44,488 nucleotides of DNA from Brachyspira sp. G79 (lineage in GTDB: Bacteria > Spirochaetota > Brachyspiria > Brachyspirales > Brachyspiraceae): assembly GCF_002379365.1 (NCBI RefSeq), contig NZ_JQIU01000008.1:2205871-2250358 (forward strand). The letters are read 5' to 3'. Within the stretch, counting starts at the first letter, position 1; the number at the start of each line of letters is the position of its first letter. Below, piece by piece: positions 15,257-34,762 of the stretch. The notes under the pieces were generated by a model. It was not told the DNA's origin. It did no database searches and worked only from the letters and a program-made list of their open reading frames with translations. The position numbers and the translations under genes are program-made.

Positions 15257-15326
15257 AAGGAGTGAGCCGAAGCCAAATAATGACGAAGTCGGTATTTAAT
15301 CATAGGCGTAGGCGAACATAGTAATA
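15257..15326 (+). promoter_or_regulatory. Split-SD leader RNA element, copy 1
   Basis: AAGGAG (15257-15262) abuts a helix formed by 15262-15274 (GTGAGCCGAAGCC) and 15305-15317 (GGCGTAGGCGAAC). Pairing includes a tandem G.A step and a GAA/GUA internal loop. Inside is a hairpin: AAATA/TATTT, A.G mismatch, U.G, GAC/GTC, loop GAA. The start codon at 15327 follows the helix by 9 bases. The real SD-to-ATG distance is over 60 bases, the folded one about 9. Confidence 0.7.
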
Positions 15327-15752
15327 ATGGACGCATTAGAAGTTTTAACTTTTTTAGAAAAAGATTCTATTCACAATAATGCTTCAAATTATTATGATGA
15401 AAAAGATAATGAAAAAACAGTCTATGAAATAGCTGTTGAACTTGAAGAGAAATATCATGTAGTATCTAAGTTTTTAGAAAAATACAAAGATGATATTTCT
15501 TTTTTTATTGCTAAAGAAAAAAGTTATTCTGCTTTACACCCAAATGAAAGCGATAATTCAAATATCGTAATAGCAAACCATATAAAAGGGTTATGGCTTG
15601 ATTTTATGGAGAAAGGGGAACACGGGATAATGACTTTAAGATCCAAAAGAACGGGGACAGTAGGACTTATTGATACAGGAGAATATTATCAAAGTATGGA
15701 AATAAATTATAACGGGGAAAGCAGTAATGAGGGACTTAATTATTTTAGTTAA
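15327..15752 (+). CDS. Neck/tail completion candidate
   Basis: A 141-residue acidic protein located between the connector candidate and the tape measure gene. The C-terminal part SKRTGTVGLIDTGEYYQSM resembles tail-completion proteins, where a G-x-x-DTG-x-Y element is common (minor tail or HK97 gp10-type proteins). Its start lies 9 bases after leader RNA element copy 1. Confidence 0.45.
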   Translation: MDALEVLTFLEKDSIHNNASNYYDEKDNEKTVYEIAVELEEKYHVVSKFLEKYKDDISFFIAKEKSYSALHPNESDNSNIVIANHIKGLWLDFMEKGEHGIMTLRSKRTGTVGLIDTGEYYQSMEINYNGESSNEGLNYFS

Positions 15753-15766
15753 AAGGATATTAAAGA

Positions 15767-17761
15767 ATGAGTGAACTTTATTCTATAGGATTTGATTTAA
15801 GTGCTTTAGAGAAAGCATTTAAAATGTCTGAGAAAATAAAAACTAATTTAAGCGGATTTCAAGAATTATCAAATAAAAATACTAAAAATAATTCATCAGA
15901 TTTTTCTAAAAATATAATTGATTCTAATAAAGGCTTGAAAGAGCAAAATAAATTATTAGGGGTTAGTTTACAAAAATTAAATCTTATTAGATTAGTTTCT
16001 AGTAAAATAAAATGGGGAGCTTTAGCTGCAGCAGGTTTGCCTATGGCTGGTATTACAGCAGGAATTGCCGCTATGAACGGAAGTTTATCTACAAATACAA
16101 GAGCTAAAAACATAGGTCTTGATTTTGGAGAATCTAATGCTTTGAACTTTGCGGGTAAAATGACAGGTATAGGTGAAGATACTTTAATATCATCTATAGA
16201 AGGACTTACAACTTCTTTATCAGATTATTCAAAATGGGGCAATTTCGCAAGTTTAGGACTTAATGCCTCAGATTTAAAAAATAAGAACCCTACTGAGGCA
16301 CTTTTTGAAGTCCTTGAAAGTATGAAAGACAGCGACCTGCCTAAATACTTAAAAAAACAAATTATTGATAGTATAGGAATACCTTTTGACCAATTCCAAT
16401 TCGTATTAGAAGAGGGGACAGGAGAAATACAGAAATATTTTAAAGAAGGTATGGGAATGTTTGGAGGAAAAAGCGGGGAATCTTTAATGGAAGGCGAAAG
16501 AGCATTAATACGCTTTACTACAATATTAAAAGATGTTTCGCAAAATATAGGCGGGAAAATAGCACCTGCTCTCACAACTGGATTAAAATTGATTACACCT
16601 TATATATATAAATTAGCTGATAGTTTTACTTGGCTTTTAGGTAAAGTATTTACTAAAAAAAACTTAGATATGATGTCTAGTTTTTTTAATTCTATTGGAA
16701 AAATTGGAAGTGATTTAGTATCTAAAGGCATAGATTTATTTAATGGTGGAAAAGATTTTTTTAGTCAAATGTTCAAAGGGTTTAGCATTGATACTGAAGG
16801 GTGGACAAACGTATTAAAAGAATTATCAAAAGGATTTTTAGATGGTATCAGCAATTTATGGGATATTTTAAAACCTAATTTAATAGCAATAGGGCAAAGT
16901 TTAGTTAACGTATGGAAAACAATAGAACCTGATTTAATAGATTTTATTAAATGGTTTCAAAAAGATATTCTGCCAACTGTTATGACTATAGGCGGAACTT
17001 TTATTAATATAATGGGGAAAACTATAAAAAAAATTATAGATGACTTTAAGTGGTTTTGGAATGCTATAAAACCTATATTAAAACCTTTAGGAAATGGAAT
17101 AAAAGTTTTTGGTCAATTTATGAGCGATATATGGAAAAAACTTGATGAATTAGGAATAGATAAATTATTAGCTGATTTAATTAGCCCAATATCAAAATTA
17201 AAAGCTGTATTTGAGGCAGTTGAAGGCTTAAAAGAATGGTGGGATAATTTTAAGTTAAATGCAAATAATATTTGGGAAATTATAAAAAATAGCTTTATCG
17301 ATATTTGGGAGAAGGTGAAAATAAGTTTTTCTAAAATATTTCTTAGTATAGATATGGGACTTGATAGTTTTATTAGCGGATTAATGGAACTTGGAATAGG
17401 AGGAAAAACTATAGGTGATATATTTGGTTATTCTGGTCCTAAATATAAAGCTGAAAATGGTTGGTGGAAAATAAAAGATGAAAAAGGCGATTATCAGTAT
17501 CTTGGTAAGAATGGAGGAATATCTCAATATCCTGAAAAAAGAGTAAATGACGCTATTATTACAAAAACGGGGCAAGTTGTAAAAACAGATCCTCAAGATT
17601 ACATTTTTGCTATGAAACAGCCTCAAAAATTAGCTTCTTCGGGAGCAAGTGGAGGAACATATAATATAAATATTAATGCTAATGTACGTAATGATAATGA
17701 TATACGAAAAATAAAGAACGAATTAGAGAAACTAATAAAATCTTTTAATTCTAAAAGGTAA
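15767..17761 (+). CDS. Tail tape measure protein
   Basis: The 664-residue protein has an Asn/Lys-rich start, an Ala/Gly-rich hydrophobic stretch (about 84-108), and long amphipathic helices with many Trp/Phe. The C-terminal motif VNDAIITKTGQVVKTDPQDY (near residues 595-614) is typical of tape measure proteins. It sets tail length and may enter the host membrane on injection. 664 residues is short for this family. It lies in the head module, far from sheath and tube genes, which is unusual. AAAAGGA precedes the ATG. Confidence 0.7.
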   Translation: MSELYSIGFDLSALEKAFKMSEKIKTNLSGFQELSNKNTKNNSSDFSKNIIDSNKGLKEQNKLLGVSLQKLNLIRLVSSKIKWGALAAAGLPMAGITAGIAAMNGSLSTNTRAKNIGLDFGESNALNFAGKMTGIGEDTLISSIEGLTTSLSDYSKWGNFASLGLNASDLKNKNPTEALFEVLESMKDSDLPKYLKKQIIDSIGIPFDQFQFVLEEGTGEIQKYFKEGMGMFGGKSGESLMEGERALIRFTTILKDVSQNIGGKIAPALTTGLKLITPYIYKLADSFTWLLGKVFTKKNLDMMSSFFNSIGKIGSDLVSKGIDLFNGGKDFFSQMFKGFSIDTEGWTNVLKELSKGFLDGISNLWDILKPNLIAIGQSLVNVWKTIEPDLIDFIKWFQKDILPTVMTIGGTFINIMGKTIKKIIDDFKWFWNAIKPILKPLGNGIKVFGQFMSDIWKKLDELGIDKLLADLISPISKLKAVFEAVEGLKEWWDNFKLNANNIWEIIKNSFIDIWEKVKISFSKIFLSIDMGLDSFISGLMELGIGGKTIGDIFGYSGPKYKAENGWWKIKDEKGDYQYLGKNGGISQYPEKRVNDAIITKTGQVVKTDPQDYIFAMKQPQKLASSGASGGTYNININANVRNDNDIRKIKNELEKLIKSFNSKR

Positions 17762-18169
17762 TTACCATTCTTTTTTGCCTGTGTACTTTTTGGCTAGCCC
17801 TTTTTTTATCAAATATTGCCCCACATCAATATCATCGGCTTTTACACTTGCTAACACTCTAAAATATTTATCACGTCCTAAATTGTATAAAACTATCTTT
17901 TTGCTTGAATACAACAAAGTTTCTAGTTCAAACTTGGCTTTATAGGCTATGTCTTTAATAGCTTTTCTACTATCATCAAGCTCTGGAGTGTCTATGCCTC
18001 GTATTCTGATAGCTATTTCTTCTCCAAACACGGCGGGAATATTTTTTATATTAACAACAAAAGTATCGCCGTCTCTTACTCTGACAAGCTCAAAATTGGT
18101 TATCTCTCCTTTATAAGTTTGAGAGTAGGCTAAATTAAAAATAAGTAAAAATATAAATAACTTTTTCAT
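17762..18169 (-). CDS. Secreted thermonuclease (SNase family)
   Basis: About 135 residues: signal peptide (MKKLFIFLLIFNLAYS), then an SNase domain with RVRDGDTFVV, IRIRGIDTPELDD (catalytic Arg, Asp and Glu) and GRDKYFR (second Arg). It should be exported and degrade nucleic acids outside the cytoplasm. I chose the Met of MKKLF rather than 18184 because it gives a standard signal sequence. It is a leftward single-gene cargo cassette between rightward late operons, convergent with the tape measure gene. Confidence 0.8.
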   Translation of the reverse strand: MKKLFIFLLIFNLAYSQTYKGEITNFELVRVRDGDTFVVNIKNIPAVFGEEIAIRIRGIDTPELDDSRKAIKDIAYKAKFELETLLYSSKKIVLYNLGRDKYFRVLASVKADDIDVGQYLIKKGLAKKYTGKKEW

Positions 18170-18312
18170 AAATACATCATACAAATAATAAAGTATATAA
18201 AAGGTTTATACATTTTTTTTATACTTTCACAACAGTTTATAAGCGGTTTTTTTGATTTTTTTTACTTAAAATTAGGAATTATAAAAGTGAAAAGTATTGT
18301 TTCTTTTATATA

Positions 18313-18332
18313 TAAACTAACTATAGTATAAA
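18313..18332 (+). promoter_or_regulatory. Late promoter motif, copy 2
   Basis: A perfect copy of the 20-bp motif followed by TCTTTTTT, 34 bases before the terminase start. The rest of the 18170-18366 gap holds a block (18236-18247 TTTATAAGCGGT, then GATTTTTTTT) that recurs upstream of the other leftward cargo operon. Confidence 0.7.
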
Positions 18333-18366
18333 TCTTTTTTCTCTTCTCTATTCTATAATTAAGCAA

Positions 18367-20511
18367 ATGGCTAATAATAAAATTAAGGACAAATATCATA
18401 TACCTTTTATGATTGAGAAGTTTAAAGACTATATCAATAAAAAACAGTCTAAATATCCAACTTTTGAAGAACTTTATTTACAAAATAGCTGGGTAAAGCA
18501 AAGCGTACACAGAATATTAAAAGATGAGGCAGGAAAAGAAATAAACGAAAAAACACTCACATTTTGGTATATGAAGTTAAAAGAAAAGCAGAGAAAAGGA
18601 ATATTAGAAAAATTATACACAAATAAATCAGTACAGGGGCTTATTTTTTTAGCAAAATACTGCCATGGCATAGGAATAGAAAAAGACGGCGAAGAGTCAG
18701 GTGGGGCAACTGAGCTTGATTATAAATTAGAGATTTTGAGGCATGATATAGAATTATTCTTTAAATTAGCTAGAAAAGAGAATATTGACCCTACAAAAAA
18801 GTTTGTACACCTTGAAGGCGGAAGAGCAGGCGGAAAAAGTGAACAGGTGGCAAGATATGTTATATTAAAGGCACTTGAAAGAAGAACGGCAGGCTCTTTG
18901 CTTTGCGGTCGTGAGATACAAAAATCTATTGATACATCGGTAAAACCGCTTCTTGAACGTATTATTAAACTATATCATCTTGAGAAATATTTTAATATTA
19001 CAAAGCAAGAAATACTTTCAAAACATAATAATGTCAGAATTATTTTTATGGGATTAAAAGAGGCTTCTTCTGACGCTTCGGACACATTAAAATCTACAGA
19101 CCTTTTATTTTTAGCTTGGGTTGAGGAAGCTCAAAGTATTTCAGAACTTTCACTTGAAAAATTGATACCGACTGCGGCAAGAGTTGAAGACTATCAAATA
19201 ATATTTACTTACAACAGGCATAGACAAAATACTATAATTTATGATTATTTTTTTAATGAAAATGTGACCCGAGAGCGTCACATTTTGACACAGCATATAA
19301 ATATAAACTATTATGACAATAAGTTTAATTCGCCAGAACTTATTTCATTAGCGGAACTTGACAAAGCAACAAATCTAAAAAAATGGAAATATATTTGGAA
19401 CGGAGAACCGCAGACAGAGTTTGACGGAGCTTTATGGACCTATGAAGAGATAAAAGACTTAAATCTCAATTTAGCTTATGACAAAGACAATTATGTACGT
19501 AAAATAGTAGCAACCGACCCTGCCACAAGCTCAAAAGACTTCAATAACGAGTACGGAATTACAGTATTAGGACTAACTCACGAGGGATATGTTCATTTAA
19601 TAGCTGATGTAAGCGGACATTATACTGCCTCAGAATATGCGAAAGTGCTTGTAAAGACTTATTTCAATTATGAATGTGAAGCAGTTGTTTATGAAGAAAA
19701 TCAAGGCGGTGATCATGTAGCAAATACTATATTAAGTGAAAGTAAAAGTGTTCGTTTAATAGCAGTTAGAGCAACACAGAGTAAATATTTAAGAGCTTTA
19801 CCTGTAGCAAATTTATGTTCTCAAGGAAAAGTGTATTTCTTAAAAAGTTTCCCTACTTTAGAAAATCAAATGCTTTTACTTACAATACAAGGCTATCAAG
19901 GAGAACAAGGAGAAAGCCCAGACAGGCTTGATAGTTTTGTATGGGGCGTTTATGAGCTATTAGGCTTGAAAGATGCTAATTCTATAGATGTTTACTTCAA
20001 AAGAGCTTGGTTTAAATGTATTGATGATATTGATACTGAATACAATATTACAAACAAAATTGCTTATTACAGCTACAAAGGAAGTAAAAGCGTATTTGTG
20101 TTATTTGATTATTTCTATACCAGAGACGGATTAAAACAATTACAGCATTTCTTAATTAAAGACATAAAAGTATATGACACTAACGATATAGCAGAGAAGA
20201 CAAAAGATTATATAAATGATGTTAATTCAATAATAGCTTTTGACAATGAGAATATAGATTTCAGAAGTCTAAATACTAATAATATAGACAGAATAGAAAT
20301 AGAGAAACTTAAACTAATAGATTATGCCGCTTATTCAATGCCTTATATACAAAACAAACTTATATATTTAGCCAAAAATCAGGAACTTGAAAGGACTATT
20401 ATAGATAATGTATGTCAATATATCCCTGAGGAAGTCAAAGAGAATATCGTTTTGGAAACATTACTTGAACTTATTTATTATGAAAATGAAGGTGAGGCAT
20501 TAAAAAATTAA
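18367..20511 (+). CDS. terL: Terminase large subunit with N- and C-terminal extensions
   Basis: The 714-residue packaging motor has Walker A GGRAGGKSE (about residues 152-160), Walker B LLFLAWVEEAQ (about 240-250) and a nuclease domain starting KIVATDPATSS (about 379-389) with later acidic residues (YEENQGG; PDRLDSFVWG). About 115 residues precede the ATPase and could act as a fused DNA-recognition part, as no separate small subunit is seen. About 185 residues after the nuclease (from NSIDVYFKRAW) are extra and unrecognised. The ATG lacks a Shine-Dalgarno. Confidence 0.85.
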   Translation: MANNKIKDKYHIPFMIEKFKDYINKKQSKYPTFEELYLQNSWVKQSVHRILKDEAGKEINEKTLTFWYMKLKEKQRKGILEKLYTNKSVQGLIFLAKYCHGIGIEKDGEESGGATELDYKLEILRHDIELFFKLARKENIDPTKKFVHLEGGRAGGKSEQVARYVILKALERRTAGSLLCGREIQKSIDTSVKPLLERIIKLYHLEKYFNITKQEILSKHNNVRIIFMGLKEASSDASDTLKSTDLLFLAWVEEAQSISELSLEKLIPTAARVEDYQIIFTYNRHRQNTIIYDYFFNENVTRERHILTQHININYYDNKFNSPELISLAELDKATNLKKWKYIWNGEPQTEFDGALWTYEEIKDLNLNLAYDKDNYVRKIVATDPATSSKDFNNEYGITVLGLTHEGYVHLIADVSGHYTASEYAKVLVKTYFNYECEAVVYEENQGGDHVANTILSESKSVRLIAVRATQSKYLRALPVANLCSQGKVYFLKSFPTLENQMLLLTIQGYQGEQGESPDRLDSFVWGVYELLGLKDANSIDVYFKRAWFKCIDDIDTEYNITNKIAYYSYKGSKSVFVLFDYFYTRDGLKQLQHFLIKDIKVYDTNDIAEKTKDYINDVNSIIAFDNENIDFRSLNTNNIDRIEIEKLKLIDYAAYSMPYIQNKLIYLAKNQELERTIIDNVCQYIPEEVKENIVLETLLELIYYENEGEALKN

Positions 20512-20528
20512 TACTAAAAAATAATAAA

Positions 20529-20604
20529 AAGGAGGAAGTGAGCCGAAGCCAAATAATGACGAAGTCAGTATTTAATCATAGGCGTAGGCGAACATAACAA
20601 TAAT
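20529..20604 (+). promoter_or_regulatory. Split-SD leader RNA element, copy 2
   Basis: AAGGAGGA, then helix 20538-20550 with 20581-20593 (same arms as copy 1). The inner hairpin equals copy 1 except G91 of copy 1 is A here (position 20567), turning U.G into U-A and so keeping the pair. ATG 20605 is 11 bases after the helix. Confidence 0.7.
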
Positions 20605-22536
20605 ATGAGCTTCTTTAAAGACGGTAAAAATACAATATTATCATACGATGAATGTAAAGATATTTATAGAACTGCCACACTCGGCAAAAGAATAGTCGAA
20701 GGACTTGTAAACTTTGCTATGAGTGCGGAGCGAGAAATAGATATACAGAAAGCACCGCCTGAGGCAGTAGAAAAGTTCAAAGAGACAGCGGAAGTAATGA
20801 AACAGCAAGACGCTATAAAAAAAACTATATACAATGCCCGTATTTACGGAACAGGGGCTTTATATGTGGCGATGTATAATGAAGAGGAAGAAAAGGACGA
20901 CTTTACTACAAAACCTACTTTTGAAGACGCTCATAAATATAAAATGAAGTTTACAGTGTTGGACCCGCTTAATATAAGCGGTTCGAGGGTGGATTTAGAC
21001 CCTTTATCTTTTCATTTTCTGGAAGTAATTGATGTAAAAGTAAGTTCTAAATCAATACCTAGAAAAAGAGTTTGTGTTTCTCACGCTTTAGAGCCTCTTT
21101 ATTTAGACAGTAGAACTTCATTAATTCCGTTTTCTCCTCCTTCTGTATTTTATAATATGGTTAAATTATTAGAGCAGTATGATGACGCAATAAAGTCTAT
21201 AGGTGATTTACTTTATAAAGCAGGGGCAATTATTTATAAATATCCTGAAAAAGCTAAATTAAATGGAGTAATAATAGACGCAATAACTGCCGCAAAACAG
21301 ATTTTAAGGCAAAAAAGAAGCGGAGAAGTTATTGCTATATCTTCTAACAGCAGTATAGAAGATTTCCCTATTTCTAATTTAAGCGGACTTATAGAAAGCA
21401 TTAATAAACTTGAAGATGACATAACAAAAGCATTGAATGATACGCCTGCCTCAATACTATTCGATAAAAGTCTTTCAAACGGATTTAGCGAGGGAGACAA
21501 AGACAAAGAAACTGAAATATCAATAATAGAAAGTTTTAGAGAAAACAAACTCACTCCTCTATACAATCTTACTGATTATTATGTTATGCTCAAGGCTTGG
21601 GACAGTGCTTTTATAGATGATATGCGTTATAAATACAGCGAATATCAGGATAAAACAGACAGCGAAATATTTAGAAGCTGGGCGGATAATTTCACATATC
21701 AATACGGCAACTTATTTCCAGAGCCTGAAAGTATTACTCAAGACAATAATGCTAAAAAACTTGATAATTTACTTAAAGCTCAGCAATTAGGAGCTAATAT
21801 AGCGGATATTCAAGAGGAGCTAAACGAAAGCGAAATATTTAAGAATGAAATGGAATTAGACTCTCCGCCTCAAGGAATGGACGGAATGGGAGGGACAGAA
21901 TATGATGAGGAAATGTTTGATTATACAAAAAATGACAGTAGTATAAAAGCAGATTCTGACGCTTACAGCGGGCAGTCGCCTGATTTTAAGGAAGAAGAAC
22001 ACCCAAGAGATGAAAATGGACAGTTCAAAAAAGGAAGCGGAGAAAACGATAAACAGGAAGACAAAGAAGAAACTAATAACGAAGATTCAAGCGAAGAAGA
22101 TAAACAAAAAGAAGAAAAAGAAATACAGGACAAAATTAAACAGCTTGAAAAAATAGACTGGAATAAAGATAATACATTGCCTAACTTTCCAAAATCTTTT
22201 TTGAAAAAACAAGGTTTAGAAGATAAGCCTATATTATTAAAAAAGAATATAATTGAAAAAAATAAGGCAAGCCACCCTGATATTACGGAAGAAGAAGCTA
22301 AAAGAATAATAGGAAATGCTTTATATAAGCCAGAATTAATATTAAAGGCAAATGCTGAAAAGACAGCCTATCATAATTTTATATCAAGAACAGATGATAA
22401 ACATAGCGATTTAGTATTGTTAGAATTATCAGATAAAAAAGAAAACTATGAAATAGTAAATTATCATGTAATAATAAATAAAGATAGAAATAGAAAAGAA
22501 GAATTACATCAAAATATATTAAATAAAAAAAGCTAA
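20605..22536 (+). CDS. Portal protein fused to a C-terminal nuclease-like domain
   Basis: Residues 1-450 match the DUF1073-type portal family (now catalogued, as I recall, as Acb1-like N-terminal): YRTATLGKRIVEGLVNFAMS, ARIYGTGALYVAMY, and DTPASILFDKSLSNGFSEGDKD. A low-complexity linker begins at about 463 with HPRDENGQFKKGSG, a phrase common at junctions in portal and MuF fusions. Residues about 520-643 resemble PBECR/ColicinD-RelE-like phage nuclease domains: KASHPDITEEEAKRIIGNAL, then SDLVLLELSD and EIVNYHVI. The last domain assignment is by pattern only. The start is set by leader element copy 2. Confidence 0.75.
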   Translation: MSFFKDGKNTILSYDECKDIYRTATLGKRIVEGLVNFAMSAEREIDIQKAPPEAVEKFKETAEVMKQQDAIKKTIYNARIYGTGALYVAMYNEEEEKDDFTTKPTFEDAHKYKMKFTVLDPLNISGSRVDLDPLSFHFLEVIDVKVSSKSIPRKRVCVSHALEPLYLDSRTSLIPFSPPSVFYNMVKLLEQYDDAIKSIGDLLYKAGAIIYKYPEKAKLNGVIIDAITAAKQILRQKRSGEVIAISSNSSIEDFPISNLSGLIESINKLEDDITKALNDTPASILFDKSLSNGFSEGDKDKETEISIIESFRENKLTPLYNLTDYYVMLKAWDSAFIDDMRYKYSEYQDKTDSEIFRSWADNFTYQYGNLFPEPESITQDNNAKKLDNLLKAQQLGANIADIQEELNESEIFKNEMELDSPPQGMDGMGGTEYDEEMFDYTKNDSSIKADSDAYSGQSPDFKEEEHPRDENGQFKKGSGENDKQEDKEETNNEDSSEEDKQKEEKEIQDKIKQLEKIDWNKDNTLPNFPKSFLKKQGLEDKPILLKKNIIEKNKASHPDITEEEAKRIIGNALYKPELILKANAEKTAYHNFISRTDDKHSDLVLLELSDKKENYEIVNYHVIINKDRNRKEELHQNILNKKS

Positions 22537-22537
22537 A

Positions 22538-22635: not shown

Positions 22636-22694
22636 TTTAGTTTAACAAAGTTTTATGATAAGTCAATACCAAAATAAAAAATATTAAACAGCGA

Positions 22695-22714: not shown

Positions 22715-22747
22715 TCTTTTTTCATTAATTGATTTTATACTGTAGTT

Positions 22748-23641: not shown

Positions 23642-23721
23642 GTGAGAACGAGCCGCCTCGATACTTCAGTGTCGAGGGAGTCATTAGGCGAGTTCGAACA
23701 TAGCAATAAAAGGATTTCTTA
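23642..23721 (+). promoter_or_regulatory. Leader RNA element, copy 3 (variant with its own SD after the helix)
   Basis: Helix 23642-23654 (GTGAGAACGAGCC) with 23687-23699 (GGCGAGTTCGAAC): pairs GU/AC, G.A A.G, GAAC/GTTC, G.A A.G, GCC/GGC. Inner hairpin: 9 bp (23656-23664 with 23669-23677), loop TTCA. Unlike other copies there is no SD before the helix; AAAGGA follows it and ATG 23722 comes later. The element is flanked by ATAGCAATAAAAG at 23624-23636 and 23700-23712. Confidence 0.65.
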
Positions 23722-24678: not shown

Positions 24679-24755
24679 AAAGGAGGAAAGCGAGTACGAG
24701 CCTCAAAGTAAGTTCACTTGCTTTGAGTTTATAGGCGAGTACGAGCATAACAACA
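24679..24755 (+). promoter_or_regulatory. Split-SD leader RNA element, copy 4
   Basis: AAAGGAGG, then helix 24690-24702 (GCGAGTACGAGCC) with 24734-24746 (GGCGAGTACGAGC): two tandem G.A steps flank the self-complementary GTAC. Inner hairpin is 10 bp (24703-24712 with 24717-24726), loop TTCA, with a U.G pair at the seventh position. ATG 24756 follows the helix by 9 bases (ATAACAACA). Confidence 0.75.
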
Positions 24756-26643: not shown

Positions 26644-26652
26644 AAAATAAAA

Positions 26653-26729
26653 AAGGAGGAAGCGATTGCAAGCCTCAAAGTAAGTTCACTTGCTTTGAGT
26701 TTATAGGCGAGCATGAGCATAACAATAAT
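26653..26729 (+). promoter_or_regulatory. Split-SD leader RNA element, copy 5
   Basis: AAGGAGGA, then helix 26662-26674 (GCGATTGCAAGCC) with 26706-26718 (GGCGAGCATGAGC). The inner hairpin is identical to copy 4. The outer arm has drifted: UGC/GCA pairs are kept, one position is U.U and one G.A step has become A.A/A.G. ATG 26730 follows by 11 bases. Confidence 0.65.
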
Positions 26730-27490: not shown

Positions 27491-27513
27491 TAAGCTAAAG
27501 GAATATTAAAAAA

Positions 27514-28098
27514 ATGCTGATACAAACTTTACTCGGCTCTGCCTCAAGTATAAACAATACTGGATTTAATTTTCAATCTATAGCAGCGAAATATAATAAG
27601 TTTGCGGTTATTTTACCAGATACGGCAAATATTTTAAGTGGATATGTTACTCAAAATGATTTGCCTCTCCCTCTCGTTGGGTTTGAAGTTACCTACAATG
27701 GAGATGTTCCTTTTTTGGTTAATGAATATTCTGAATATCCTTATTTGAACAAGCAATTATTAATAGACGGAGCTGTGAGGCAGAATGCCGATTTTTCTGT
27801 AATACTTTATAATTTAATCACTTCAGCTAATCCGTGGACAGTTCAAATGATAACTAATCAAATATTCGTTGACGCCTTGGAATATTATGTACAGAAGGGA
27901 GGCACTTTTAATATACTCACTCCTTGGGGAGATATTAAATATGCTGTTTTAGTTGGTTTGTACGGAATAGAAAACGAGGCTGGACAAAAAGGCGTTTCAT
28001 TTAGGCTTGATTTAAAGACGCTAACTCCTGTTTATAAAAGCGAGGCAGACAAGCTCGTAAGTACATTAAGCAAATATATTACTGGAGTTATTATATGA
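27514..28098 (+). CDS. Tail/baseplate protein, unknown family
   Basis: A 194-residue protein with beta-rich N-terminus and the phrases LPLVGFEVTYNGDVPFLVNEYSEYPYLNKQLLIDGAVRQNA and WGDIKYAVLVGLYG (quoted in parts: GFEVTYNGDVPF, EYPYLNKQLLIDGAV). It follows the chaperone genes and is coupled to the next gene (4-base overlap). Likely a tail-tube/baseplate connector by position. AAAGGA precedes the ATG. Confidence 0.45.
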   Translation: MLIQTLLGSASSINNTGFNFQSIAAKYNKFAVILPDTANILSGYVTQNDLPLPLVGFEVTYNGDVPFLVNEYSEYPYLNKQLLIDGAVRQNADFSVILYNLITSANPWTVQMITNQIFVDALEYYVQKGGTFNILTPWGDIKYAVLVGLYGIENEAGQKGVSFRLDLKTLTPVYKSEADKLVSTLSKYITGVII

Positions 28099-28415
28099 CG
28101 CTTCTACAATCTTTTTCTTTCACTGTAAATACGGAAGGGACTTTCGCAGAGCAATATCCTGATTTGAGAACTGGATTTTATTCACAGCAGATAAGTATAG
28201 ATGGTACTTCATACACTTTCAAAATATTTCCGAACTTTTATATGGAAAATGTGGAAGTTTCTATACTTAATGAGGCAGGGGAGGCTATTATAAGTAATGT
28301 TCCTTTCGTGCTTGCTGAAAATGTCAATTATTTAATCGGAGATATAGCTTTTAATAACTATAAATTAATATTTAATTTCAAAAAGAATCAATTTGAGCTC
28401 TATTCTTTGGATTAA
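28095..28415 (+). CDS. Small baseplate-region protein, unknown
   Basis: A 106-residue beta-rich protein (LLQSFSFTVNTEGTFAEQYP...) overlapping the previous gene by four bases. Its TAA stop is formed by the first three bases of late promoter motif copy 4. A tail structural part is likely by context; no family recognised. Confidence 0.45.
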   Translation: MTLLQSFSFTVNTEGTFAEQYPDLRTGFYSQQISIDGTSYTFKIFPNFYMENVEVSILNEAGEAIISNVPFVLAENVNYLIGDIAFNNYKLIFNFKKNQFELYSLD

Positions 28416-28432
28416 ACTAACTATAGTATAAA
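28413..28432 (+). promoter_or_regulatory. Late promoter motif, copy 4
   Basis: A perfect 20-bp copy, but followed by GAAATATATAG instead of the usual TCTTTTT. It drives no visible gene; a strong terminator lies about 60-100 bases on. Confidence 0.65.
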
Positions 28433-28540
28433 GAAATATATAGATTATATTGTATAGTTTAAGTAACTCATATAATCCTTAAAATTAATTAACAGCTAGT
28501 ATCTTTTTTGTTGTTTTTAAGATACTAGCTTATTTTTTTA
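28433..28540 (+). ncRNA. Candidate small RNA between late promoter motif and terminator
   Basis: About 100 bases lie between motif copy 4 and a strong terminator. They contain no ATG and no ribosome site, so a transcript from the motif would be a short noncoding RNA ending in a 12-bp hairpin. Alternatively the motif here is inert and the terminator serves the upstream operon. Existence of the RNA is inferred. Confidence 0.4.
28494..28540 (+). terminator. Strong Rho-independent terminator
   Basis: A perfect 12-bp stem (AGCTAGTATCTT at 28494-28505 with AAGATACTAGCT at 28519-28530) followed by TATTTTTTTA. It ends the sheath-to-28415 operon and/or the candidate small RNA. Confidence 0.85.
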
Positions 28541-28552
28541 TGTTTTTTAATT

Positions 28553-28572
28553 TAAACTAACTATAGTATAAA
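28553..28572 (+). promoter_or_regulatory. Late promoter motif, copy 5
   Basis: A perfect copy followed by TCTTTTTC, 12 bases after the terminator T-run. It would drive the hub operon through a leader of more than 300 bases. Confidence 0.7.
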
Positions 28573-28894
28573 TCTTTTTCAAGAAGTTGAATGTATAATT
28601 AAATTAGTGAATAAAACTTCTTATTTGTTTTCGCTAATTAATAGTGTGTACATCGCACTCTTTACATACATACTAAATAATTTAATTAGAAAAGGAGGAG
28701 CCAAAAACTGTTCATATTATCCTACTGTTGTGTCGCGATGACAGTAAGGAATTATCAAAACCGATAACTAGAACTTAGCTTTAGTCTTTGTTTAGTTTAA
28801 TTTGATTTAAATTGTGAATAATTTTAAAAAAAAGAGTTGACTGATTACGCCGTGCTGTCTATTGTGCTGTGAAGGCAGTACGGCAATTTAATTT
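28573..28894 (+). promoter_or_regulatory. Long structured leader of the hub operon
   Basis: About 320 bases between motif copy 5 and ATG 28895. It holds a possible 44-codon frame (28607-28741), an orphan AAAGGAGG at 28691-28698 with no close start, an imperfect hairpin around 28721-28747 (CCTACTGT with ACAGTAAGG) and a 9-bp hairpin at 28849-28857/28876-28884 that ends 10 bases before the ATG. The last feature resembles the spacing of the leader RNA elements, though the sequence is different. Confidence 0.4.
28607..28741 (+). CDS. Possible small membrane peptide (GTG start)
   Basis: Forty-four codons from GTG: MNKTSYLFSLINSVYIALFT is followed by YILNNLIRKGG, giving one plausible membrane span. 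The ribosome site is weak (AAGAAG about 20 bases upstream). It would be the first cistron after late promoter copy 5, but it may be a chance frame within a structured leader. Confidence 0.25.
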   Translation: MNKTSYLFSLINSVYIALFTYILNNLIRKGGAKNCSYYPTVVSR

Positions 28895-29368
28895 ATGGAA
28901 GATTTTAATATTGATAATAAAATATTTAAAGATATAGATGATTTAACTGTAAGGATAGTTATAAGCATATCCTCATTAAATAAAGAATTATCTTCTAATG
29001 ATATTGATAGGATAGCAAAATGGCTAATTATCAAATTAATAGCTTTAAAGTTTATGGAAGATAAAAAAATGCTCATCACTGGATTAAGAGATATTAAAAG
29101 ATTTGATGATATAAATAAATTATTTAATAATGCTTATCAATATACAGGCTCTAGTATTTTTAATAAAGATAATGAAATAGATTTTGAAATACATTCTGAT
29201 ATTATAAAAGTTATTACAAATAAATTATATGAATATGATTTTAAGTATTTTCCGTATGATTTTTTAGGCACTGTTTATGAACTATTTTTAAGCAAAAGTT
29301 TTGAAAATATAACAAAAAGGAATATAGACTATGAAAAGTTTAACACAAACAACACTATTGAAAACTAA
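28895..29368 (+). CDS. Fragment resembling the N-terminal helical domain of Type IIG-like methylases
   Basis: The 157-residue protein carries LIIKLIALKFMEDKKML, an F(N)NAYQYTGSSIFN stretch and YDFLGTVYELFLSKSFE. This order recalls the helical region that precedes the catalytic domain in Eco57I/Type IIG-like adenine methylases (ILNR..F..FLEDK ... LF ... DFLG.IYE..L). No catalytic domain follows, so it is either a stand-alone domain of other function or a remnant. It overlaps the next gene. The match is by pattern and not certain. Confidence 0.4.
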   Translation: MEDFNIDNKIFKDIDDLTVRIVISISSLNKELSSNDIDRIAKWLIIKLIALKFMEDKKMLITGLRDIKRFDDINKLFNNAYQYTGSSIFNKDNEIDFEIHSDIIKVITNKLYEYDFKYFPYDFLGTVYELFLSKSFENITKRNIDYEKFNTNNTIEN

Positions 29369-29600
29369 AATCTGGAACGAATTAAAAATAATGCTTCCGT
29401 ACAATGAGCTTACTTTCAGTGTAGCCTGTAAGGATAAATTACAGTCTATAACTTTACAAATGAGAGGCGAAGAGCTTAAAATAATGAAAGGAAAAGCACT
29501 GTTTTCTAAAAATAAATTAAATGAAGTAAAACTCTGCCTCATAGACATTTATAAAGAGTTTGAAGAGGAAATACAGGAGTTATTTACTTGGAGGGCATAG
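29331..29600 (+). CDS. Small tail-region protein, unknown
   Basis: An 89-residue protein (MKSLTQTTLLKTKIWNELKI...) preceded by AAAAAGG and overlapping the end of the previous gene. It immediately precedes the hub gene, with one base between; context suggests a baseplate assembly factor. Confidence 0.45.
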   Translation: MKSLTQTTLLKTKIWNELKIMLPYNELTFSVACKDKLQSITLQMRGEELKIMKGKALFSKNKLNEVKLCLIDIYKEFEEEIQELFTWRA

Positions 29601-30740
29601 ATGAGAGCTTATAAAATAGAACTAACATCAAAAAACGGCGTGAGTGTAGGCGGAAGCAAACAGCCTAACTACCAACCGCCAACAACTTTGGTATTACAGC
29701 AAAACTTAGGCAATATGGGCGACAATATACATATAGAGTTTGAGTGCGTTTCATATTGTGATACAAGCAATAAAAATATATATGACATGGCAGTATTAAG
29801 TTTATATAATGTAAATAGATATTGGCATAATGAAAACTCCGCAGGAAAATTGGCAGGAGCTAGAATTGTAATTTATGCTGGAGTAAAAGCAACACCTATA
29901 CATTATCATCAAGGATTGGTTGATCCAAAAAATACCTGCTATGCTTTAAATGACAGTCAAATAACAACAACGCCAATTTATGACGGTTATGTGGCAAACA
30001 GCTATGCCAATATGGACGGAGCAAGTACAGTTCTTGTTTTAAACTTAATCCCTGTAAGAGAATTAACAGAAGACGAAAAAGCCTCTGTTAATCAATTAAA
30101 TATATATCAAGGTACAGAATGGAGAAATGATGTAAAAAAATTCATAGATAATTATTTAATATTAACAAGAGCAAAACAAGAAGGCATTTCTGCGGAAATT
30201 GGTATTCACACGGAAGGCAGTATTGAATTAGCAGAAACTAATATTCATTCAAATAATATTGAAGGCATATTTGAAACAAAAAGAAAAGGGGCGGTATGTT
30301 TAGCTGATTATGTAAAAAAAGCATTTAATGAAGTTATAAAAAAACAAGGGAGCACAATATATATAGGAGAACCTGCAATAAATAAAATAGATATAATTAG
30401 CGATAAAGATTTACTCGGACAGCCTCAATTAATTAATCCTAACACTATAACTCTTACAGTGCCCCTTACTTCTAAGTTTAGAATACTCCAAACAATACAG
30501 CTTAAATTAGAAAGTTTTATAGGCTACGGGCAGGCATTTATAACAGAGGGAGACCCTGCTGGTTTTGGAATTACTGCCGACCGAGTATCGAAAATGTATG
30601 AGGGAACATATCAAATAACTACTATTAGATATGTTCTACAAAGCAGGAATACTGATATAAATGCTTTTTGTACAATTTTAGAAGCTGTGAAAATTAAAGA
30701 TATTAAGGCTTTAAACTCAGGTAAAAATCTTTTATCTTAA
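29601..30740 (+). CDS. Baseplate hub protein candidate (gp27/Mu gp44-like position)
   Basis: The 379-residue, beta-rich protein has the layout of phage hub proteins: an N-terminal domain with IHIEFECVSYCDTSNKNIYDMAVLSLYNV, a middle NIEGIFETKRKGAVCLADYVKKAF domain and a C-terminal SKFRILQTIQLKLESFIGYGQAF barrel-like segment ending in TYQITTIRYVLQSRNTD (phrases given in part). Located upstream of spike and gp25/J/I genes as in Mu-like phages, with cargo genes inserted between. GGAGG precedes the ATG. Confidence 0.5.
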   Translation: MRAYKIELTSKNGVSVGGSKQPNYQPPTTLVLQQNLGNMGDNIHIEFECVSYCDTSNKNIYDMAVLSLYNVNRYWHNENSAGKLAGARIVIYAGVKATPIHYHQGLVDPKNTCYALNDSQITTTPIYDGYVANSYANMDGASTVLVLNLIPVRELTEDEKASVNQLNIYQGTEWRNDVKKFIDNYLILTRAKQEGISAEIGIHTEGSIELAETNIHSNNIEGIFETKRKGAVCLADYVKKAFNEVIKKQGSTIYIGEPAINKIDIISDKDLLGQPQLINPNTITLTVPLTSKFRILQTIQLKLESFIGYGQAFITEGDPAGFGITADRVSKMYEGTYQITTIRYVLQSRNTDINAFCTILEAVKIKDIKALNSGKNLLS

Positions 30741-30741
30741 A

Positions 30742-31347
30742 TTAATTTAAAACTTTTTCGCATACTTCAAAATAAAACCTAGTCATCATTAATAAATCAT
30801 CGATAAATTGAGAGGCATTTTTCTCTATTTCTCCATTAATAAAATGCTTCTCTGTTTCTTTTATTTGTATACTAGATTGATCTCTATATTCTAAGTCTTC
30901 ATAAAAAGAATGCATACCGCTAAAGTTTTCTGCTCTTATAAGAACAGCATTTACTTTTTTTGTAGATAAATCTTCTAATTCTGCCTCAGAAACATCAGGC
31001 ATACCAGAAAAATACATCATATTATTAATTTTTTCATTTAAACTTATAATCATACCAAAAGAAAAAGAACCATATATATTATTATTTTCTCTAATATCTA
31101 AAAAACATCCTTTTGTTAAATCTTCTTCTGTTACAGGTGTTTGTGTTCTTATGATAATAAAAAAATGAGGTGCTGGAACTTCAAGCGTTTCTTTTTCTTG
31201 TAAAATTACAAATTTATAAGTATCTCTATTTAATTCATAATGTATTTTATTATTGTCTTTAATATTGTTTACGCCTTCTGGTATTTTATATCCATAGCAA
31301 ATAACAGCAAAATAAAAAATACTAAATAAAAAGATTATTTTTTTCAT
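30742..31347 (-). CDS. Secreted/periplasmic cargo protein
   Basis: About 201 residues starting with a signal peptide (MKKIIFLFSIFYFAVICYG). The mature part has no recognised domain; it contains RTQTPVTEEDLTKGCFLDI and ENFSGMHSFYEDLEYRDQ. The Met at 31347 is chosen because GAGG lies nine bases upstream and the product then begins with a standard signal. It is co-transcribed with the TM2 gene, whose end it nearly touches, and is probably a host-benefit (moron) gene. Confidence 0.5.
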   Translation of the reverse strand: MKKIIFLFSIFYFAVICYGYKIPEGVNNIKDNNKIHYELNRDTYKFVILQEKETLEVPAPHFFIIIRTQTPVTEEDLTKGCFLDIRENNNIYGSFSFGMIISLNEKINNMMYFSGMPDVSEAELEDLSTKKVNAVLIRAENFSGMHSFYEDLEYRDQSSIQIKETEKHFINGEIEKNASQFIDDLLMMTRFYFEVCEKVLN

Positions 31348-31351
31348 AACT

Positions 31352-32017
31352 TTATTCCTCATAAGTTTTATTAATTTTTAGTAAATTATTTTTATAAGCT
31401 ATAATCATAAAATATAATTTAAACATATCTTCTAATTTATCAAACATAAAAACAACATTTTTACCTTTTATCTTAGTTATCTCTACTATATTAGGAATGT
31501 TTATATTATCTTTATTACATACGGCATCTATAATATCTTTCAATTCTATTTTTTTTACTTCTGTATTAGAAACTAAAAAAATTCTTTTATTTGTCAAATA
31601 AAAGTTTCCTTGAGTTATCAATTCTAATTTATCATTTCCTTTAATTTTTCTGTATTCATACCATTGTGAATATGTTTTTAAAAAACATTTTTCATCTTTT
31701 GTTAAAGAATTATCTATTTCCGTATTAATTGCCTCTATATATTTACACTCTTCCATAACTTTATTATATATTTCATTTCTAACATAGAGCTTATTATATT
31801 TCATATCAAAATCATCATCTTTCATTTTTATAAATAGAAAAAACTCTATCAAAGAAATAATTTGAGGAATAAATGTCCAACAAAATAAAATATATAATAT
31901 TCCTTTTTTGTACATTCCTAAATAGAACTTATGTAATCCAAATGGAAGGCAGGTAGCGGATAGAACTGCTAATATAGTAGCTCTATCTTTAGACTTCTTT
32001 TTTATATTGTTATTCAT
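31352..32017 (-). CDS. TM2-domain membrane protein with C-terminal PH/GRAM-like region
   Basis: Residues 15-65 form a TM2 domain: AVLSATCLPFGLHKFYLGMY, then KGILYILFCW and FIPQIISLIEFF (two spans with the polar LHKFYLG loop). The C-terminal 90 residues (ITQGNFYLTNKRIFLVSNTEV, IELKDIIDAV) have the NFYLTNKRIFLV pattern of bacterial PH/GRAM-like domains, which often binds membranes. First gene of a leftward two-gene cargo operon; role in the host unknown. AAGG precedes the ATG. Confidence 0.6.
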   Translation of the reverse strand: MNNNIKKKSKDRATILAVLSATCLPFGLHKFYLGMYKKGILYILFCWTFIPQIISLIEFFLFIKMKDDDFDMKYNKLYVRNEIYNKVMEECKYIEAINTEIDNSLTKDEKCFLKTYSQWYEYRKIKGNDKLELITQGNFYLTNKRIFLVSNTEVKKIELKDIIDAVCNKDNINIPNIVEITKIKGKNVVFMFDKLEDMFKLYFMIIAYKNNLLKINKTYEE

Positions 32018-32295
32018 ATATAAGCCTTAAAAATATTATAGATATACTAATATTCTAAACTCTTTTAAAAAAATGTCTATATATACAGTTTATATATTTT
32101 TACTACTTTTTAAACCTTTTATAAGCGGTCTTTTGGATTTTTTTATGCGAAAGTGTGAAGTATATATTGTGTTTGTTGCTTTTTAGACATTTTTATATAA
32201 TTTGTCTATTTTTGTATTGTATTTTAGTAATATATATTATATATTTGTTACAGGGAGATTAATAATTCCCAAAAAATAATTTTTACGAGGGTGTT
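32018..32295. promoter_or_regulatory. Divergent intergenic region with shared cargo block
   Basis: Upstream of the leftward TM2 operon, 32118-32129 reads TTTATAAGCGGT and is followed by CTTTTGGATTTTTTT, closely matching 18236-18260 upstream of the thermonuclease. It likely contains the leftward promoter of the cassette. On the right side is the rightward leader of the 32296 gene; no 20-bp late motif is present. Confidence 0.4.
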
Positions 32296-32559
32296 ATGGT
32301 AACTAAAGATGAAATAGAAAATGAAGTTTCACAGAATTATCAATTCTTTTTACGAGAAAAAGAAAATAATCACATTCCTTATGACTGCCTTAATAAAGTG
32401 GCATTATTAAGAAAACAGCAAATAATAGATTATTTTGATTCAATAGATGACGCTTTAAAATATGCTAGAAAAGTTTATGAAGATGGTTTATATTCTGTAC
32501 AGAAAGTGAATGATATTGTTATCAATTTAGGATATATAGGGAGCGTGTTAAATGCCTAA
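32296..32559 (+). CDS. Small partner protein of the retropepsin-like gene
   Basis: An 87-residue helical protein (MVTKDEIENEVSQNYQFFLR...) whose end overlaps the start of the protease-like gene by 8 bases. The middle SIDDALKYARKVYEDGLYSVQKV looks like a small helical bundle. The two genes form an isolated rightward pair with its own terminator, lacking the late motif, so they are probably expressed in the lysogen. Confidence 0.5.
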   Translation: MVTKDEIENEVSQNYQFFLREKENNHIPYDCLNKVALLRKQQIIDYFDSIDDALKYARKVYEDGLYSVQKVNDIVINLGYIGSVLNA

Positions 32560-32950
32560 ATTGACACTTCCTATTGTAAATAATCAAGCTATCTGTGAAG
32601 CATTTATATACGATAATATAAGTCATCAGCGAATCACTTCTAATGAGAATAAAGTACGTGTATTATTTGATACAGGAGCTACTAATAGTGCTGTTACTTC
32701 TAAAGTCATTAAACAATTAAATATACAGCCTATATCAAAAAGAGCTATGCTTTCTCCTTTAGGAACTAGCGAAGTTAATATTTATAAAGTTAATATTTTT
32801 CTGCCTTTCCCTCAAAATATAGCTCTTTCTCAAGAACTATTTGTTTCTGAAATAGCAGATAATCCTACTTTTGATGTAATAATAGGTATGGATATTATTC
32901 AGCGTGGTTGTTTAATTATATCTGATAAAGCATTTATTTTCAGTATTTGA
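32552..32950 (+). CDS. Retropepsin-like aspartic protease family protein
   Basis: The 132-residue protein has the aspartic protease signature VLFDTGATNSAVTSKVI (about residues 42-58) and, near the C-terminus, FDVIIGMDIIQRGCLIIS, the hydrophobic-hydrophobic-Gly flap typical of single-domain retropepsin-like proteins. It would act as a homodimer with one Asp from each chain. There is no signal peptide, so it should be cytoplasmic. Pairing with a small helical protein is notable. Confidence 0.75.
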   Translation: MPKLTLPIVNNQAICEAFIYDNISHQRITSNENKVRVLFDTGATNSAVTSKVIKQLNIQPISKRAMLSPLGTSEVNIYKVNIFLPFPQNIALSQELFVSEIADNPTFDVIIGMDIIQRGCLIISDKAFIFSI

Positions 32951-32980
32951 TAATAAACACTATTTCTTAATAAAAAACAT

Positions 32981-33016
32981 AAGCCGACATCGTTTTTACG
33001 GTTTCGGCTTTTTTAT
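32981..33016 (+). terminator. Rho-independent terminator
   Basis: AAGCCGA (32981-32987) pairs with TCGGCTT (33004-33010), with an inner CGT/ACG pair, followed by TTTTTT. It ends the retropepsin pair and separates it from late promoter copy 6. Confidence 0.75.
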
Positions 33017-33030
33017 TCCCTAAACATCGA

Positions 33031-33050
33031 TAAACTAACTATAGTATAAA
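33031..33050 (+). promoter_or_regulatory. Late promoter motif, copy 6
   Basis: A perfect copy, with CATCGA before it and TCTTTTTTT after it, 48 bases before the spike gene, which here does have a Shine-Dalgarno. It would drive the baseplate-fibre-lysis operon. Confidence 0.7.
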
Positions 33051-33098
33051 TCTTTTTTTACGCTTTGTTTTTATAATAAAAATAAAGGTAATAAAAAG

Positions 33099-33806
33099 AT
33101 GTTTGAACAAAAAATAGACACATATCAAAGTATAAATAATAATATTGCTAATCAAATAAACAACGCATTAAAAAGCCTTCCAAAATCTGAGCCTTGTAAG
33201 GTTGAGGAAGTGAAAGGCAATAAAGTAAAAGTTGCCAGAATGCTTGAAAATGACAATGTTATAGGTTATGCCGATAATGTGCCTATAATACGCCCTATCT
33301 ATTTTACCTACCCTATCAAACAAGGCGATGTTGGGCTTTTAATAGCCTCAAATTATCCTTGCGGAAGTTATATAAAAGATAATAATACACCGCCAAAAAA
33401 TATGCCTGAAAATGCCAATGGTTCGGGTTATTTGTTTCTGCCTTTAGCTCCTGACAATTTAGATTTTATTCAAGATACAGAGGGTAAGGCTTTTGAAATA
33501 TATTCACTGGACGGTAAAACTTCAATAATCATTGATGATGATAAAATACAAATAAAAGATAATGCCTCAGGCGATGATGAGGGCGATAACAATAATATTT
33601 TGATAGATGAAAACGGAATAAATATATTAGACACAAATAAAAATAATATTGTTATGAGTTCGGACGGAATAAGCATTACAGATGTAAACGAGAATAAAAT
33701 AACTCTTTCAAGCAGTGGGGCAACAGTAGAAGATAAAAACGGAAATGTAATTGAAATGGGAAGTACAAGCGTAAAAATAAATAATAATTTAGAGGTGCTT
33801 CAGTGA
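33099..33806 (+). CDS. Baseplate spike protein (gpV/Mu gp45-like)
   Basis: The 235-residue protein has an N-terminal OB-like domain (VEEVKGNKVKVARM; YPIKQGDVGLLIASNYP, with the typical GD-x-GLL phrase) and a C-terminal repetitive beta-helix (ILIDENGINILDTNKNNIVM, SSDGISITDVNENKITLSS), as in central spikes that pierce the host envelope. First gene of the baseplate operon, followed by gp25, J and I genes in Mu/P2 order. AAAGG precedes the ATG. Confidence 0.75.
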   Translation: MFEQKIDTYQSINNNIANQINNALKSLPKSEPCKVEEVKGNKVKVARMLENDNVIGYADNVPIIRPIYFTYPIKQGDVGLLIASNYPCGSYIKDNNTPPKNMPENANGSGYLFLPLAPDNLDFIQDTEGKAFEIYSLDGKTSIIIDDDKIQIKDNASGDDEGDNNNILIDENGINILDTNKNNIVMSSDGISITDVNENKITLSSSGATVEDKNGNVIEMGSTSVKINNNLEVLQ

Positions 33807-34168
33807 AATACATAGCAGTTCAAGGCTGTACGCTTACAACAGACAATGCTACAGCTCAGGCTACTATAATAGACAGTCCATCTGTAAAAGTAAAAGCAGG
33901 CGGAAATGGAGTATATAAAACGCCTCTTAAAGTACAGGTTGCGGGAGCTACTCAAGGTAATTTTGCTCAGACTGCCCCAAGTGTTGGAAATATTGAAAGC
34001 ACTGCACAAAAAGTAAAGGCGGATAATGTGCTTGTAATTTTGGAAGGGGATAAAACAAATACTCCTGTTCAATGCCCTGCTACAGACCCAAGCACTGGGG
34101 CAACAACTACAATTATGGTAACAGTTACAGTACAGCAGGCAGGACAGACTAAAGTTTTAGGAGCATAA
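33803..34168 (+). CDS. Spike-associated protein (possible PAAR-like tip)
   Basis: A 121-residue Ala/Thr/Val-rich protein starting at a GTG that overlaps the spike stop. Its pattern (VQGCTLTTDNATAQATIIDSP, then VKAGGNGVYKTPLKVQVAGA) is beta-rich with Gly turns and recalls small PAAR-like or DUF4280-like spike-tip proteins; I cannot confirm metal ligands. GAGG precedes the start. Confidence 0.4.
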   Translation: MKYIAVQGCTLTTDNATAQATIIDSPSVKVKAGGNGVYKTPLKVQVAGATQGNFAQTAPSVGNIESTAQKVKADNVLVILEGDKTNTPVQCPATDPSTGATTTIMVTVTVQQAGQTKVLGA

Positions 34169-34260
34169 AGGAGGAGTGAGCCGAAGCCATCTGACAAACT
34201 TGTTTGGCAGATACTTTTAGGCGACCGAGTAGGCACCCTTTGGGTGGGCGAACATAACAA
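34168..34260 (+). promoter_or_regulatory. Leader RNA element, copy 6 (three-hairpin variant)
   Basis: AAGGAGG, then 5' arm 34176-34188 (GTGAGCCGAAGCC as in copy 1). The 3' arm is interrupted: GGC at 34220-34222, a GACCGAGTAGG loop, an extra hairpin CACCC-TTT-GGGTG (34234-34246), then GGCGAAC at 34247-34253. Inner hairpin: ATCTG/CAGAT, A.G mismatch, CAAA/TTTG. It ends ATAACAATA and runs straight into copy 7, so it has no start codon of its own. Confidence 0.65.
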
Positions 34261-34261
34261 T

Positions 34262-34338
34262 AAAGGAGGAAAGCGAATGCGAGCCTGCGAATAAGTTTAC
34301 TTGTTCGCATATTTAAGGCGAGCAGGAGCATAGCAATA
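34262..34338 (+). promoter_or_regulatory. Split-SD leader RNA element, copy 7
   Basis: AAAGGAGG, helix 34273-34285 (GCGAATGCGAGCC) with 34317-34329 (GGCGAGCAGGAGC), both G.A steps kept. Inner hairpin 10 bp (34286-34295 with 34300-34309), loop TTTA; its lower six pairs differ completely from copies 4 and 5 while the upper TAAG/CTTG part is the same. ATG 34339 follows by 9 bases. Confidence 0.75.
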
Positions 34339-34680
34339 ATGGGAGCATGGCTTTTAGATGTTAATGGGGCTTGGCATGAAGTAACAGGCGATATTGAAAC
34401 TAGGATAATTGATTTTATTACTAGGCTTCAAACTATAAAAGGTGAACAGTCTTTTAATGCTGATAACGGACTTGATTTTTTAAATATTATAAACGGTTCC
34501 TCTTTGCTTGAAGTAGAAGTTGAGAATATAGCAAGAGATTTTAATAATTATTTTGATGTAACGATTGGAAAATCGGAAGAAGATAAAAAAGCAAGAGTAA
34601 TGAAAATAGACATAAATATGAAGCTAAAAAATAGCAGTAATAATGAAACACTTAATTATACTGCTATTATAGGAGTATAG
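34339..34680 (+). CDS. Baseplate wedge protein (gp25/W, Mu gp46-like)
   Basis: A 113-residue protein directly before baseplate J, in the place of Mu gp46/P2 W/T4 gp25. It has the expected beginning (an N-terminal segment LDVNGAWHEVTGDIETRIIDFI, quoted in part) and a C-terminal beta part (KIDINMKLKNSSNNETLNY). It is flanked on both sides by identical leader RNA elements. Confidence 0.55.
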   Translation: MGAWLLDVNGAWHEVTGDIETRIIDFITRLQTIKGEQSFNADNGLDFLNIINGSSLLEVEVENIARDFNNYFDVTIGKSEEDKKARVMKIDINMKLKNSSNNETLNYTAIIGV

Positions 34681-34683
34681 CAA

Positions 34684-34762
34684 TAAAAGGAGGAAAGCGA
34701 ATGCGAGCCTGCGAATAAGTTTACTTGTTCGCATATTTAAGGCGAGCAGGAGCATAGCAATA
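34684..34762 (+). promoter_or_regulatory. Split-SD leader RNA element, copy 8
   Basis: Identical to copy 7: AAAAGGAGG, helix 34697-34709 with 34741-34753, ATG 34763 nine bases later. The copy begins four bases after the stop of the preceding gene; ATAGCAATAA occurs both before the element (34677 onward) and after it (34754 onward). Confidence 0.75.

Follow-up and report, generated by a model that had tools for sequence, protein, structure and literature searches.

The 44,488-nt stretch of the Brachyspira sp. G79 genome analysed here (the window; G000:C8:2205871-2250358) is a prophage with a contractile tail and 29% G+C, in a genome of 3.28 Mb. It contains eight copies of an element of ∼57 nt, all on the + strand, at 15262, 20538, 23642, 24690, 26662, 34176, 34273 and 34697, where an earlier note made from the letters of the window had placed them. 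The eight copies are probably members of a family of small dispersed repeats, specific to Brachyspira, whose RNA is predicted to fold into a rod and which, in phage genes, would bridge the Shine-Dalgarno (SD) sequence and the start codon. Structure-bridged initiation is well supported by sequence comparison at six of the eight window copies and at 19 unique copies in several phages. In these genes, the linear distance from SD to ATG is 64–71 nt. The rod would remove 55–58 nt from this path, leaving the SD and the AUG 9–14 unpaired nt apart; most ordinary window genes have a spacing of 5–9 nt. On comparative grounds, the 30S subunit could then hold SD and AUG at once, with the rod pointing outwards, so that the insertion would be tolerated.

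The element comprises a 13-nt arm, a 10-bp hairpin, a linker of 7–8 nt on the 3' side and a second 13-nt arm. In the predicted rod, two base pairs and a tandem G.A step close the end; its context, 5'-YGAR-3', is one known for sheared tandem G.A pairs. The inner hairpin, which the earlier note held always to pair, does so in 10 positions with at most one mismatch, around a loop of 3–4 nt. A hand-written structure paired 93.3% of the cells in the eight window copies, versus 67% in shuffled sequences, and only 31–41% of the cells paired when the pairing partner was slid by 1–3 columns. Both sides had changed in 12 of the 19 pairs, with a covariation score of 0.695 versus 0.204 for the control. 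In an alignment of 24 diverse copies, 96% of the cells were paired and 15 of the 19 pairs showed compensatory variation (score 0.768 versus 0.199 when shuffled; slid controls, at most 0.147). These data bear out the earlier claim that the central pairs change together. Unguided minimum-energy folding recovered the common arm-hairpin-arm plan in seven of the eight window copies (z −2.0 to −4.8); the exception, copy 6, has an extra hairpin within its 3' arm and an unremarkable z of −0.17. Length was 55–58 nt in 99 of 116 unique copies. The proposed constancy of the tandem G.A steps held for the outer GA/GA, kept in 96 of the 104 unique copies at least 54 nt long, and failed for the inner step, which may be GA/GA, GAA/GUA or perfect A/U pairs.

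Six window copies stand between an SD and the start codon it would serve. The SD of copy 1, AAGGAG (15257..15262), overlaps the first base of the helix (15262..15317; GCCGAA type), and the tail ATAGTAATA (15318..15326) runs to ATG 15327 of a 141-aa open reading frame (ORF) of no assigned function before the tape-measure gene. The other five have AAGGAGG. Copy 2 (20538..20593; SD, 20529..20535; tail ATAACAATAAT, 20594..20604) precedes the portal gene at ATG 20605, copy 4 (24690..24746; SD, 24680..24686; tail ATAACAACA, 24747..24755) the tail sheath gene at ATG 24756, and copy 5 (26662..26718; SD, 26653..26659; tail ATAACAATAAT, 26719..26729) a 186-aa ORF at ATG 26730. Copy 7 (34273..34329; SD, 34263..34269; tail ATAGCAATA, 34330..34338) lies before a 113-aa ORF at ATG 34339. 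Copy 8, identical to copy 7 (34697..34753; SD, 34687..34693; tail ATAGCAATA, 34754..34762), lies before the baseplate J gene at ATG 34763. As the earlier note had it, the SD is at or within 3 nt of the helix in all six, and the ATG follows the helix by 9 or 11 nt. Its proposal of structure-bridged initiation was well supported for these six, given their split SDs, the empty sites described below and the scarcity of alternative starts. Copy 3 (23642..23699) differs in being 5' of its SD, AAAGGA (23709..23714), which serves ATG 23722. Copy 6 (34176..34253; SD AAGGAGG, 34168..34174; tail ATAACAATA, 34254..34262) has no gene start directly after it because the SD of copy 7 comes next. Copies 7 and 8 lie in 80 identical nt (34262-34341 and 34686-34765), 424 nt apart, which suggests a recent duplication or gene conversion.

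The position of the SD was then related to that of the start codon in 134 unique copies, using a model (R2) built without flanks. According to the distance from the helix to the next gene start, two classes were apparent, one at 9–12 nt (20 copies) and one at 20–29 nt (30 copies); the remaining copies had no close downstream gene or were part of arrays. The SD was 5' of the helix in 19/20 copies of the first class and 0/30 of the second, and between helix and ATG in 0/20 and 27/30, respectively (p 7e-13 and 4e-11; Fisher p about 7e-13). The sole exception in the 9–12 nt class, L082:8092, lies before a methionine-synthase-like gene; in L075, the homologue of this gene begins at the following ATG, where an SD of its own is present. 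All identifiable genes behind bridged copies are phage genes, namely terminase, HNH, portal, sheath, baseplate hub, J and endolysin; several others have no assignment. The same data bear on the idea that the rod is an RNase cleavage site or an mRNA-stabilising site, followed by an SD-independent start on the tail, ATARCAATA. Although this tail is A-rich and rods are found in the sense orientation behind stop codons, like mRNA-stabilising repeats, genes that start 20–29 nt on and have no SD before the helix nearly always have one after it. The tail alone therefore does not seem to suffice, and we consider this idea very unlikely.

A start codon close to the SD, which the earlier note had named as the outcome that would speak against bridging, was rejected as a general explanation: 16 of the 19 bridged copies lack an ATG in the 18 nt next to the SD, and 15 lack an in-frame ATG, GTG or TTG upstream. 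The annotated ATG of all six bridged window genes is also the earliest ATG, GTG or TTG that its frame allows. A related proposal is that translation starts near the SD inside the element, terminates after a leader peptide and restarts at the downstream ATG. Copies 7 and 8 and L070 do have an ATG at an ideal distance from the SD (5 codons); in copies 7 and 8 this is a decoy paired in the stem. In copy 2 and L069:8561, a frame opened by GTG ends 7 nt short of the main ATG. By contrast, eight of the 19 bridged copies lack any start codon within 18 nt of the SD. Of the short frames found, most either terminate 21–65 nt short of the main ATG or extend beyond it. Reinitiation is thus hardly to be expected.

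Relatives that lack the element provide natural controls. For five genes (portal, sheath, ORF186, endolysin and baseplate hub), element-free relatives use the same start codon with an ordinary SD-ATG arrangement. At the portal, G002, G024 and G021 have no element, the empty site being GAAGGAGAAAAAATACAATG in G002 and G024. The sheath site is empty in G021 and holds other elements in L087 and G024, while the ORF186 site reads AAGGAGAATGTATG or AAGGAGCATTTATG in three relatives. Conversely, the window has empty sites at the endolysin-like gene 39331 (also empty in G010 and G006; filled in G009 and G022) and at the baseplate hub gene 29601 (filled in G024). The site of the non-bridging copy 3 is free of the element in G024 and G021. 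A second kind of control is provided by the related phage L087, which is 79–87% identical to the window outside the replaced element interiors: the sheath, ORF113 and J genes have an element in both, with different interiors and conserved SD and ATG. This cassette replacement at the same gene supports the description of the element as a reusable module in the earlier note. At a further site, L126 (G025:C5) has the tail ATAGCAACAATAGGAG without an element where relatives are filled; this is perhaps the footprint of an excised copy.

The covariance model built from the eight window copies matched 48 places in the same genome. A search of further genomes with this model, along the lines suggested by the earlier note, revealed a genus-wide family. 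Matches were present in 22 of 26 Brachyspira genomes, usually in the tens and up to 89 each, for a genus total of many hundreds; four genomes had none and four others one to four. Among 296 spirochaete genomes sampled from 138 genera, the element was confined to Brachyspira and was not seen in the 270 genomes of other genera. A fixed-length pattern scan of 84,980 species returned 35 stretches, all in Brachyspira; the pattern also matched a single viral contig, which is related to the window phage. A loose 14-base pattern applied to viral contigs gave 120 chance-level stretches, and none of the 80 inspected contained the element. Phage GenBank records yielded no DNA match to window positions 34160-35980. 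The presence of copies throughout the genus led us to reject a phage-specific origin. In line with the earlier description of the element as new, no Rfam family reached its gathering score, none was found at E up to 1 for 34160-34780, and the Brachyspira genome papers searched, a partial coverage of the literature that is not proof, do not describe the repeat.

The gene before the element was codirectional with it in 106 of 108 cases (106:2); for the gene after it, this held in 100 of 110. Transcription of the element is therefore in one fixed sense, and insertions in the antisense orientation either do not arise or do not persist. Some copies form tandem arrays. One chromosomal copy is flanked on both sides by the 24-mer GCTGTTCTTTATTTTACTAAATAA, which is present once at the empty site in G005. 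Another copy is in frame within a coding sequence between two copies of AGCAACAATGAAAT, and many relatives have an empty site. It occurs in a phage-like gene that may encode a prohead protease (L161:1431-1488; L077:10959-11038), and reads MPASNNE-MSRRSRHNSLCLEIRSGGEYSNNE-IRS, with flank duplications of 14 bp and most relatives without it. An empty site could also result from loss between direct repeats; for individual copies, the direction of change is accordingly unproven. Overall, flank duplications of 14 and 24 bp were seen at two copies and none was evident at bridged copy 5. The family would spread by a route that can leave duplications of 14–24 bp and tandem arrays. From sequence comparison, the phenomenon is larger than the earlier note saw, for the element is an inserting repeat found across the genus, with flanks that can be duplicated, copies in tandem and, in one case, an in-frame position within a gene.

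Other small motifs accompany the element. Extra hairpins are nested in its arms or loop at window 34222-34245, L067:10609-10704, L070:8654-8922 and L168, exemplified by CACCGAAGGTGGACACAGTC, GGTGGACTTCGTC and GACCAAGTAGGCACC..GGTGG; these are apparently other small repeat families that inserted into it. A shorter related class, with a 43-nt match, occurs at L081:8563-9990, L083:8454-8674 and L080:10084, likewise in chromosomal tandem arrays. It has TTGTGAAC..GTGAACAA arms, one tandem G.A step and an inner hairpin of the same type.

Whether the phages use the element or merely put up with it was weighed on the same evidence. It may be purely selfish and neutral in the SD-AUG gap by virtue of its fold, which entails the same bridging without selection for it; we give this an even chance. 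Copies come and go at a given site among close relatives, four of the 26 genomes do without the element altogether, and it sits in many unrelated genes, in arrays, in 3' regions and, once, in frame inside a coding sequence. However, bridged genes have much stronger SDs than ordinary genes do: AAGGAGG is found in 15 of 19 bridged genes versus 3 of 52 ordinary window genes (p 3e-9). Moreover, an SD precedes seven of the eight copies in the window, while SD-ATG gaps make up ∼10% of the non-coding sequence (p 6e-7), and interiors have been replaced at the same site with the structure kept. That copies persist with a strong AAGGAGG and exchanged interiors hints that some may have been retained as modules for initiation. 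A fuller version of this view is that Brachyspira phages have domesticated a family of mobile RNA elements whose fold hides them from the initiating ribosome. The phages would employ SD, rod, A-rich tail and AUG together as an exchangeable initiation cassette by which the expression of virion and lysis genes is set or conditioned. We put it forward tentatively, and selection for use of the element by phages is likewise possible rather than probable.

The constancy of the outer tandem G.A step and closing pairs while neighbouring pairs change could also reflect an operator. According to this proposal, the G.A-rich rod responds to a host or phage protein, to a ligand or to temperature and so switches the translation of structural genes; the genes behind bridged copies do include terminase, portal, sheath, baseplate, endolysin and HNH genes. 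However, the same motif is kept in copies outside the SD-AUG gap, and the set of genes with the element differs between closely related phages. We therefore regard such a candidate operator as unlikely. The earlier suggestion that a protein at the G.A helix sets the dose of structural proteins was likewise unsupported, and the G.A step is equally conserved outside the gap.

Several observations weigh against the bridging interpretation or the family history given above. The effective spacing reaches 13–14 nt in some genes, which exceeds the 5–9 nt of most ordinary phage genes. In longer folds, the SD or ATG of some copies is partly paired: the ATG of copy 1 is 0.06 unpaired, and the closing pair of copy 2 has a probability of 0.22. 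AAGGAGG may travel with the phage subfamily in tandem copies, which makes the 19 bridged cases less than fully independent. The counts of AAGGAGG and of copies behind an SD likewise assume independent copies, which holds only in part, since SD and element move jointly as tandem units. The split between SD and ATG would also arise if copies had inserted on either side of SDs that then lost their role; the strong SDs, the conserved starts and the essential nature of the genes speak against this account. Finally, no Y1/RAYT transposase was detected in any of the 26 Brachyspira genomes, with positive controls, and such an enzyme was rejected as the partner of the element.

Bacteriophage T4 provides the closest functional parallel. 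Hairpins reduce the SD-AUG spacing of T4 genes 25 and 38 from 27 to 11 nt and from 22 to 5 nt, respectively, and mutations that destabilise the hairpins reduce initiation (PMC3014915). As in those split ribosome-binding sites, a structure in a phage leader gives SD and AUG a working distance. In the Brachyspira genes, the structure between them is predicted from covariation and de novo folds; there is no SD after the helix in the 9–12 nt class, and the effective spacing is workable. T4 gene 25 is a baseplate gene. Whereas the hairpins of T4 are small and each is confined to a single gene, the Brachyspira rod is a single covarying family of ∼57-nt dispersed, inserting elements at many genes, where it would shorten 64–71 nt to 9–14. 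The Brachyspira case thus appears to work like the T4 sites, but as a dispersed inserting element.

Among repeats, Rickettsia palindromic elements (RPE) are likewise palindromic and restricted to a genus; they are intergenic and sometimes in frame inside genes (PMC2229807). The in-frame Brachyspira copy is reminiscent of them. However, RPE are 105–146 bp, have a reading frame often fused into protein genes and are known for protein-coding insertions, whereas the Brachyspira element is 55–58 nt, predominantly intergenic with one in-frame case, and usually in untranslated RNA, in phages in the SD-AUG gap. It resembles ERIC, RUP, Correia and other repeats of the miniature inverted-repeat transposable element (MITE) type, as well as REPs, in being small, non-coding and present in many copies, in its RNA fold, and in the flank duplications at some copies. 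Its 13-nt imperfect arms are equivalent to the terminal inverted repeats of MITEs. Unlike these repeats, it shows no target-site duplication of fixed short length, is strictly sense-oriented and keeps internal G.A steps. Y1_Tnp, the only transposase family searched and the one to which the RAYT of REP/REPIN systems belongs, was absent.

The genes identified in the window encode terminase, portal, head morphogenesis, tail sheath, tape measure and baseplate J. The window contains no tRNA and so gives no support for a tRNA-like origin of the element, which was rejected. A separate motif, TAAACTAACTATAGTATAAATCTTTTT, occurs in five copies upstream of genes (window 11220, 18313, 22695, 28553 and 33031) and also in the relatives G024 and G021; it is probably a phage promoter or other shared signal.

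The precedents of structure-bridged initiation documented here are two T4 genes. The Brachyspira family would add many natural replicates and matched element-free relatives with the same start, and the rules for the structure that is tolerated between SD and AUG thereby become testable. Gene finders and start predictors that expect an SD 5–12 nt from the start would call these essential phage genes SD-less. For the biology of the family, the finding would show that a repeat can enter a gene at its most sensitive point and, by folding, remain harmless.

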